64,000 nucleotides of DNA from Undibacterium paludis. GTDB taxonomy: Bacteria; Pseudomonadota; Gammaproteobacteria; Burkholderiales; Burkholderiaceae_D. Of the stretch, positions 38,733-40,942 are shown piece by piece (positions within the stretch are counted from its first letter, which is position 1; each line of letters opens with the position of its first letter). The notes under the pieces are model-generated. The model searched no databases and was not told the origin of the DNA. It saw only the letters and a program-made list of their open reading frames with translations. The stretch lies in assembly GCF_022568815.1 (NCBI RefSeq), contig NZ_JAKZHX010000001.1, positions 186,001-250,000 of the forward strand, written 5' to 3'. Position numbers and translations under genes: made by a program.

Positions 38733-39047
38733 TTATGCCCCCTCAGTAAAGTTAATTTCCTGACCTGGCTTCAAGCATACAAAAGCGCGTCTTGTATGAT
38801 TGCGGCGGCCATTAAATTTACCGGTACGTTTTTGTTTACCTTGGCGATTTGCTACTTGTACGGATTCAACTTGTACTTTAAACAGCAATTCGACGGCAGC
38901 TTTGATTTCTGGCTTGGTTGCATCTGGCATCACCAGGAAAACCACTTGTTCATTCTTTTCAGCAACCATTGTTGCTTTTTCAGAAATCACAGGAGCCAGC
39001 AACACCTTCATCAGGCGTTCTTCGCTCATTTTGACTTGTGCGCTCAT
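38733..39047 (-). CDS. rplW: 50S ribosomal protein L23
   Basis: Tunnel-exit protein and main docking point for trigger factor and SRP. The 104 residues contain [18 protein letters not shown] and VNRQGK-like [14 protein letters not shown]. The ATG overlaps the rplD stop by 4 bases. Confidence 0.98.
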
Positions 39048-39667
39048 GCCAGCATCTCCTCAATCTTTGCCAGTGCTGGCTTAGTGATCAACACTTTCTT
39101 GTAGAACACCAAGGAAACCGGATCAGCATAACGTGGCTCTACAACCAGGACATTTGCCAGGTTGCGTGCTGCCAACATCAGGTTTTCATTGAATTCGTCA
39201 GTGATGATCAGGACAGAATCCAGGCAACCCATTGCCTTCAGTTTTTCAGACAACAGTTTAGTCTTGGGTGCATCAACAGCAACACTGTCAACCACATTCA
39301 AACGACCTTCACGAGCCAACTGGGACAGGATCGAGCAGATACCTGCGCGATACATCTTTTTGTTAACTTTTTGAGAGAAGTTCTCATCAGGTGTGTTCGG
39401 GAATATACGACCACCACCACGCCACAGAGGAGAAGAAGACATACCAGCACGTGCACGACCAGTACCTTTTTGACGCCAAGGCTTCTTGGTTGTGTGATGG
39501 ACTTCTTCACGATCTTTCTGCTTGCGGTTACCGCTACGGGCATTGGCCTGGAATGCAACAACGACTTGATGGATCAAGGCTTCGTTGTAATCACGACCGA
39601 AGATAGTATCAGGAGCTGCAACATTGGATGCTGCTTGACCTTGTTCATTTAGGAGCTTCAGTTCCAT
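39044..39667 (-). CDS. rplD: 50S ribosomal protein L4
   Basis: The 207 residues contain the tunnel loop [20 protein letters not shown] and the RNA-binding C-domain. In gammaproteobacteria L4 also represses its own (S10) operon by binding a leader RNA, causing transcription termination and translation block. Here the leader-like structure lies upstream of rplC, two genes before (see the leader entry), so autoregulation at that site is plausible but unproven. Confidence 0.98.
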
Positions 39668-39670
39668 GGA

Positions 39671-40327
39671 TTAGGCTCCCTTCTTTGCTTTAACTTTAAT
39701 AGCAGGAGATACAATCACCTGACCATTTTTCGCACCCGGCACAGCACCCTTGACCAGCAACAACTGGCGCTCTGCATCTACGCGAGCGATTTCCAGGTTT
39801 TGCACAGTACGGGTAACATCACCCAGGTGACCAGTCATGCGCTTACCAGGGAAAACGCGACCTGGATCCTGCGCCATACCGATAGAACCAGGTACGTTAT
39901 GCGAACGGGAGTTACCGTGAGTAGCACGACCAGAAGAGAAGTGGTAACGCTTGATGGTACCGGCATAACCCTTACCAATTGTCACGCCTTGCACATCCAC
40001 TTTTTGACCAGCTTCGAACATGCCAACAGGCACAACGTCGCCTGCCTTCATTTCAGAGGCTTTAGCAGCATCAACACGGAATTCTTTTAATACAGTACCA
40101 GCTTCAACACCTGCTTTTGCGAGGTGACCGGCAGCCGCTTTTGTTACGCGGGATGCACGGCGCTGACCGAAAGTTACCTGAACAGCGGAGTAACCGTCTG
40201 TTTCAGGAGTTTTGACTTGCGTCACGCGGTTGTTGGATACGTCCAAAACAGTAACCGGAATTGAATCCCCGTCATCTGTAAAGATGCGCATCATGCCAAC
40301 CTTGCGACCAACTAGGCCCAAGCTCAT
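39671..40327 (-). CDS. rplC: 50S ribosomal protein L3
   Basis: Early assembly protein next to the peptidyl-transferase centre. The ATG at 40327 gives [20 protein letters not shown] and 218 residues; GGAGA lies seven bases upstream. The signature [20 protein letters not shown] is clear, with the glutamine near AQDPGR that is methylated in other bacteria. It has its own promoter and structured leader upstream, separate from rpsJ. Confidence 0.98.
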
Positions 40328-40340
40328 TGTTTTCTCCATT

Positions 40341-40416
40341 CTCACCTACGATTGGGTGAGGCTGATGTTTAAAAAACTTAAACGAATAGGCCAGCCGGAG
40401 CTGACCTACATTTAAG
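40341..40416 (-). promoter_or_regulatory. Structured leader with attenuator-like hairpin upstream of rplC
   Basis: On the minus strand a long hairpin at 40377-40416 (outer arms CTTAAA/TTTAAG, inner 9-bp stem TAGGTCAGC/GCTGGCCTA with a TCCG loop) is followed at once by six T, the form of an intrinsic terminator. A second hairpin at 40341-40360 (CTCACC/GGTGAG) lies directly before the rplC Shine-Dalgarno. The arrangement recalls the E. coli S10 leader controlled by L4, but placed before rplC instead of rpsJ. Confidence 0.65.
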
Positions 40417-40422
40417 CCTTCG

Positions 40423-40451
40423 ATTATAGCCCGCAAATTTTTTATTTACAA
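40423..40451 (-). promoter_or_regulatory. Sigma-70 promoter upstream of rplC
   Basis: On the minus strand: TTGTAA, 17 bases, a perfect TATAAT preceded by GC. The expected start is near 40416, exactly at the base of the leader hairpin. The surrounding 40429-40520 segment is very AT-rich, as at strong ribosomal promoters. Confidence 0.7.
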
Positions 40452-40498
40452 GACTAATTTATTTGAATTTTCGAAAAATTGTGGTATGTCGAATTTTC

Positions 40499-40518
40499 AG
40501 TATTTTTCTAAAAATACT
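40499..40518. repeat. Perfect AT-rich palindrome between rpsJ and rplC
   Basis: AGTATTTTT and AAAAATACT are separated by two bases. It lies 33 bases after the rpsJ stop and about 50 bases before the -35 box of the rplC promoter. It is too weak for a terminator; a protein-binding site or UP-like region are possibilities. Confidence 0.5.
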
Positions 40519-40550
40519 CATTTGCATCAGTATTTTCAAATCAATAAGGA

Positions 40551-40868
40551 TTATTGCAATTTGATTTCTACGTCAACGCCAGCTGGCAGATCGAGCTTCA
40601 TCAACGCATCAACTGTTTTGTCAGTTGGGTCAACGATGTCCATCAAACGCTGGTGAGTGCGGATTTCGAATTGATCACGGGAAGTTTTGTTCACGTGTGG
40701 GGAACGCAGTACGTCGAAACGCTGGATACGTGTAGGCAGTGGGACTGGGCCTTTAACAACTGCGCCAGTGCGCTTGGCTGTTTCTACGATTTCCAGAGCG
40801 GATTGGTCGATCAGTTTGTAATCGAAAGCTTTCAGACGAATGCGGATTTTTTGATTTTGTGTGGACAT
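40551..40868 (-). CDS. rpsJ: 30S ribosomal protein S10 (NusE)
   Basis: Head protein that also acts with NusB in antitermination. ATG at 40868 gives 105 residues ([19 protein letters not shown]), AGGA six bases upstream; ATG at 40874 is too close to that site. The signature [20 protein letters not shown] is present. It lies between the tuf terminator and a 223-base gap before rplC. Confidence 0.97.
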
Positions 40869-40942
40869 GTTCATTCCTATAAAGAGCGAGCCAGCTCGGC
40901 AAGACCGGCGGCATTTTTAACAAAGAGCGAAAAAACTGAAAA

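Follow-up and report, generated by a model that had tools for sequence, protein, structure and literature searches.

The window (the whole 64,000-nucleotide stretch of Undibacterium paludis DNA analysed here) carries on its minus strand, in this order, tuf, rpsJ, a gap of 223 nt, rplC, rplD, rplW and rplB (Table 1). The gap between rpsJ and rplC contains a promoter, a 5' hairpin (H1) with six U residues, and a second hairpin (H2) adjoining the GGAG of rplC. The nearest named relatives of the locus are Undibacterium and MAGs near Undibacterium. A terminator-like hairpin with a T-rich tail lies between tuf and rpsJ (window 40972-40943, minus strand). Elsewhere in the window, Rfam RF02837 (anti-hemB RNA) matched 17361-17266 on the minus strand, with 50.7 bits against a gathering score of 49.5.

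Table 1 Features of the rpsJ-rplC region, in the direction of transcription (window coordinates).
Feature	Position	Strand	Basis and remarks
rpsJ (S10)	40551..40874	-	PF00338; upstream of and outside the proposed unit
-35 hexamer TTGTAA	40446..40451	-	Consensus scan and reading
-10 hexamer TATAAT	40423..40428	-	Consensus scan and reading; 17 nt from the -35
H1, 5' leader hairpin with long stem, loop UCCG (40399-40396)	about 40376..40417	-	Reading and minimum-energy fold
U6 tract after H1, terminator-like in Undibacterium	40371..40376	-	Reading
H2, conserved element, 6-bp stem, loop CAAUCGUA (40354-40347)	40341..40360	-	Reading, fold, conservation and covariation
rplC ribosome-binding site GGAG	40334..40337	-	Reading; 3 nt past the H2 stem
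rplC (L3)	39671..40327	-	PF00297; first gene of the proposed unit
rplD (L4)	39044..39667	-	PF00573; proposed regulator

The close relatives used for comparison are 111 loci fetched by similarity to L3 and not by the loop of H2. Thirty come from the family and 80 are the nearest named records, among them some Cupriavidus, Pandoraea and MAGs from other families; the last is L001, which occupies the same place as L002. Several of the 30 family loci duplicate named records, and the distinct upstream sequences number 107. Wider comparisons were made within the order and the class of the database, which we take to be the Burkholderiales and the Gammaproteobacteria, each in a wide sense.

The original prediction placed a TTGTAA-17-TATAAT promoter before rplC, and both scanning for the consensus and reading of the sequence recovered it. 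A consensus scan of the window alone was not above chance (18 sites, 16.5 expected). Conservation of the promoter is evident among close relatives: of their 107 distinct upstream sequences, 75 combine a -10 hexamer with at least five of six matches, a -35 starting with TTG and a spacing of 17, compared with a mean of 0.35 and a maximum of 1 in 20 dinucleotide-shuffled sets. Taken singly, the best-scoring -35 begins with TTG in 98 of the 107 (14.3 in shuffles) and a -10 with five or six matches is found in 84 (24.8 in shuffles). GGCTT lies 4 nt past the -10 of the window, at the likely start of the RNA, and GGCT is present within 14 nt past the -10 in 102/107 sequences. Further upstream, before the -35, a GACATACC box lies at window 40490-40483 (minus strand); the same box, possibly the site of a regulator, is found 116-148 nt before the H2 loop in 55/110 close-relative loci.

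Neither rpsJ nor tuf was found upstream of rplC, within the stretch examined, in 42 of the 111 close-relative loci (for example L047 and L063); for 40 of these the stretch extended about 2.5 kb upstream. H2 is kept in all 42, and promoter-like hexamers can be read in nearly all of them, L097 being unconvincing. The rplC leader can thus head a unit of its own. The proteins encoded just upstream of rplC in L063 look, by eye, like PEP-CTERM proteins.

Two leader hairpins had been predicted downstream of the promoter, and the minimum-energy fold of 40416-40325 includes both H1 and H2 (-33.5 kcal/mol, z = -6.2, with none of 200 shuffles as stable). The stems of both hairpins covary. For H1 this was seen in Undibacterium-type leaders, 13 of which could be aligned (of 16, L008, L010 and L037 being omitted for their different length); seven pairs show double changes, in 11 cells compared with 2.5 after shuffling. 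At least six U follow the H1 stem in 12 of the 16 distinct leaders of this type, by manual count. Among close relatives of dissimilar sequence the 5' part of the leader is also stably folded, with z < -2 in 68 of 105 leaders (the 107 without L038 and L097). In the 3' half of this fold, runs of at least six, five and four U occur in 21, 36 and 71 of the 105, respectively, as counted without a control.

The U6 hairpin H1 had been taken for an attenuator of the S10 kind, controlled by L4. The stability and covariation of H1 in Undibacterium-type leaders and the U6 tract in 12 of those 16 agree with such a role, which we nevertheless regard as very unlikely: H1 has neither the stem-D loop nor the stem-E loop of the Escherichia coli S10 leader described below, the six-U run is limited to the 21 leaders just counted, and the conserved S10-like part of the leader lies downstream of H1. 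Moreover, H1 and its U-tract precede H2, so that the polymerase has moved past them before H2 exists, and a protein bound to H2 cannot cause termination at H1 in the same transcript. We consider H1 a separate structured part of the leader, possibly an intrinsic terminator in Undibacterium. It may be a terminator with another trigger in this genus, or a 5' stabiliser.

The H2 loop, CAAYCGNA, stands before rplC in all 111 close-relative loci. Its stem pairs in 240 of 240 cells over 40 distinct rows, with three pairs changing on both sides and 14 double-change cells compared with a shuffled mean of 2.4, while shifted registers, used as a control, pair in 31-50%. GGAG starts 3-4 nt past the H2 stem in 110/110 loci, and TTTT was found within 16 nt past H2 in none of these 110. 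Pairing of UCA with UGG, beside the ribosome-binding site, is also frequent (34, 34 and 38 of 40), without double changes, and we do not claim it as an extension of H2. Because no U-tract follows it in any of the 110 loci, H2 is no intrinsic attenuator. The predicted attenuator of the S10 kind is therefore not supported, as the S10-like part of the leader is H2, without a U-tract, and the U6 hairpin comes before it.

A model built from the close relatives (R1) gave exactly one match in the window's own genome and matched 38 of 300 genomes of the order, once in each. When 30 of these order loci were fetched, the hairpin was just before rplC in all 29 that could be printed, the remaining one, L142, being too short upstream. 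We also took a census of 60 loci, from 126 order genomes with an L3 match, representing 47 families at about one locus per family and chosen before the upstream sequence was inspected. The loop CAA[UC][CU]GNA lies within 110 nt of rplC in 56 of the 60, with a closing stem in 55; the reverse strand gave no loops, and 100 shuffles gave a mean of 0.06 loci and a maximum of 1. Among the five loci lacking loop and stem together, L329, L334 and L347 seem on visual inspection to be variants in which the loop is altered or a single mismatch is present, and L328 and L333 are unclear or without H2. Aligned with the window, the 55 loci (alignment A5) pair in 98.8% of stem cells, with double changes at all six pairs, 73 double-change cells compared with 18.3 after shuffling and a covariation score of 0.726 compared with 0.328; in A5, as in alignments A2 and A3, a row had to show 4 bp or more adjoining the loop to be admitted, which favours the innermost pairs, while the rows of A1 were chosen by the loop only. 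H2 before rplC is thus the rule in the order (55/60 loci) and not peculiar to the Undibacterium paludis genome.

Placed immediately before the ribosome-binding site and behind a strong-looking promoter, H2 could also need no ligand and act constitutively, stabilising a highly expressed mRNA or enhancing its translation. We find this improbable, as it is the sequence of the loop, and not the stem alone, that is kept over an order, and as the loop is common to H2 and a regulated leader, that of the E. coli S10 operon.

The class census comprised 109 loci from 174 genomes with an L3 match, mostly one per family. A search for the strict loop gave 19 instances no more than 100 nt from rplC, and each of them carries a stem of 4 bp or longer. 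Of the 87 instances in the remaining sequence of these loci (43 on the plus and 44 on the minus strand), none has such a stem, and the region up to 250 nt before rpsJ, of which at least 200 nt were available in 82/109 loci, held three loops, none with a stem. With a relaxed loop, H2 is present in 21/109 loci; it is widespread in the class, yet most of the families sampled lack it or have it in changed form. The loop ends 23-69 nt from the start codon in the 19 class loci, farther than in close relatives, so that a direct block of the ribosome-binding site is less evident there. TTTT follows H2 in 1/19 of them.

Two further models were built. R2 rests on 16 distinct rows of the class, with E. 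coli and leaders of the Burkholderiales type excluded, and R3 on the 55 order leaders and the window. R2 matched 36/369 class genomes at E < 0.001 and 73/369 at E <= 0.1 (the numbers of genomes found with R2 and R3 are minimum values). The best 30 of the 73 matches all lie within 75 nt before rplC, and 15 of these 30 come from genomes outside the training rows, three of them already in the class census. A search of the phylum with R2 matched 5/299 genomes at E <= 0.01; the 3 kb fetched contained neither rplC nor rpsJ in any of the five, and we took them for chance matches; the same search also missed the leader of the window itself and is thus insensitive, so that it does not establish absence of H2 outside the class. 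When the window's own genome was searched with R3, 150 of 2726 first-pass candidates were scored and the site in the window was not among the matches.

The S10 leader of E. coli contains a long hairpin capped by CCCAU-CAAUCGUA-AUGGG, which lies 62 nt upstream of rpsJ. The apical loop CAAUCGNA is common to this hairpin and H2, which belong to the same gene cluster, and the E. coli loop is closed by a U-A pair, as in the members outside the Burkholderiales and in about half of the members from the order. H2 carries on a stem the apical loop CAAUCGUA of stem E (the labels stem D and stem E are our reading from the order of the hairpins in the E. coli leader). The original prediction of an S10-leader-like element with its own promoter, before rplC and not rpsJ, stands on this match, although the part resembling the E. 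coli leader is H2 and not the U6 hairpin to which the function had been assigned.

Three differences separate the two leaders. The E. coli hairpin lies before rpsJ, whereas H2 lies before rplC in 111/111 close-relative loci; the E. coli hairpin functions as an attenuator, with a U-rich stretch behind it, whereas H2 has no U-tract; and stem D, upstream in the E. coli leader, is lacking in the rplC leaders. A scan for stem D (RAUNN loop on at least 5 bp), made without a shuffle control, found it in 27/30 E. coli-type leaders and in 1/107 close-relative leaders. In L282-L311, this hairpin, recognised by position, lies about 96-112 nt before rpsJ. Within the E. coli-type loci stem D is better kept than the stem-E loop, which is found in 4/30 of them and in E. 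coli. In E. coli the stem-D loop reads AAUCG, a sequence thus present in both hairpins of the leader. The accessible part of PMC10578931 states that L4 control requires stem D and identifies stem E as the hairpin of the attenuator. In E. coli-type genomes L4 may read stem D, a point that we count against binding of L4 to H2.

The models connect the two leaders as well. Run on the window and the E. coli locus at E <= 10, R2 gave exactly two matches, both at the right place and both weak (E 0.075 and 0.27). R3, run on 31 E. coli-type loci (101.5 kb) at E <= 1, gave four matches, which are the E. coli stem E (weak, E 0.23, next to 0.27 with R2) and sites in L286, L289 and L290 that coincide in position with stem-E apices found before rpsJ by a pattern scan; the apex that the scan found in L285 was not matched by R3. 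Apparently undescribed, the H2 leader family is related to the E. coli S10 attenuator and lacks three of its defining features.

UCAAU resembles NusA boxC RNA, and NusA or another transcription factor could bind at the H2 loop, with the hairpin affecting pausing or elongation. In E. coli, L4 acts on both transcription and translation of the S10 operon, and NusA acts with it at the attenuator hairpin, where it promotes pausing, as described in the accessible part of PMC10931766. We judge a role of this kind quite unlikely for H2, past which there is no U-tract in any of the 110 loci and whose fixed distance from GGAG in close relatives suggests an effect on translation.

Searching with RNA profiles revealed no known different leader family: Rfam 15 gave no match at the leader at the gathering score and, under relaxed settings, only five sub-threshold matches in 40280-40600 (E 0.45 to 9.1). 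At the E. coli S10 leader Rfam likewise gave no match worth naming, and it could therefore not decide the family. H2 does show what is generally expected of a ribosomal-protein leader, namely a structure that is conserved and covaries, located in the 5' UTR of an operon for ribosomal proteins. The candidate L4 leader of Archaeoglobi (PMC7247131, accessible part) is likewise a proposed L4 leader of an rplC-rplD unit; it is archaeal, and we liken it to H2 by description and not by structure. The accessible part of that paper places an L4 leader of the rplC unit only in Archaeoglobi. The rpsJ motif RLC-47-1 of Peptostreptococcaceae (PMC11109978, accessible part) is likewise a leader candidate at the S10 gene, located before rpsJ, and is set beside H2 by description only. 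The accessible portions of the open-access literature searched yielded no description of an rplC leader of the H2 kind, and earlier studies outside open access might hold one. Our guess is that earlier surveys may have looked only before rpsJ.

No exact copy of the H2 loop was found in E. coli 16S or 23S rRNA. In 23S rRNA, a hairpin at nt 225 (U-CAACCGAG-A) resembles it and is one of two such matches, about two being expected by chance (hand estimate); R2 gave no match there. We rejected the idea that H2 is a clear mimic of 23S rRNA, the similar hairpin being at chance level.

The reading that we prefer, and hold to be somewhat probable, is that H2 is a cis-acting leader element to which free L4 binds, blocking translation of rplC and of the coupled downstream genes. 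The rplC-rplD-rplW-rplB unit would start at its own promoter, with H2 as its ribosomal-protein leader element, and free L4, the second product of the unit, would bind H2 via the CAAUYGNA loop. L4 on H2 would cover the start region and block translation of rplC, because H2 ends 3-4 nt before the Shine-Dalgarno sequence, and the later genes would follow by coupling. Control is most likely translational, given that TTTT after H2 is so rare (0/110 close relatives, 1/19 class loci). As to the ligand, a ribosomal protein, and L4 in particular, is the most likely candidate, since L4 regulates the one characterised leader with this loop that we know of. Besides stem D, we count against the binding of L4 to H2 the weak model matches at the E. 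coli leader, the lack of a 23S mimic and the presence of H2 in just 21/109 class loci.

The same translational leader might instead respond to another product of the unit, L3, L23 or L2. The position of H2 before rplC, the gene for L3, in the loci read would suit such a ligand, and no 23S mimic points to L4; we think it fairly unlikely, as the same loop occurs in the leader of an operon whose known regulator is L4.

A further possibility, which we place somewhat short of an even chance, is that feedback by L4 on the large ribosomal-protein cluster dates far back in the lineage of Gammaproteobacteria and Betaproteobacteria, with the minimal translational hairpin before rplC as the original form and the E. 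coli S10 attenuator, in which the hairpin lies before rpsJ and is part of a terminator, as the derived one. H2 is a short RNA (about 40 nt) suited to binding and structural work, and it offers a direct test of whether the attenuator evolved from, or into, a translational operator. A hairpin of this type, which almost every sampled family of one order has and a minority of the other families in the class share, would change the picture if L4 binds it: control of this kind may be older and more widespread than thought, and placed before a different gene.
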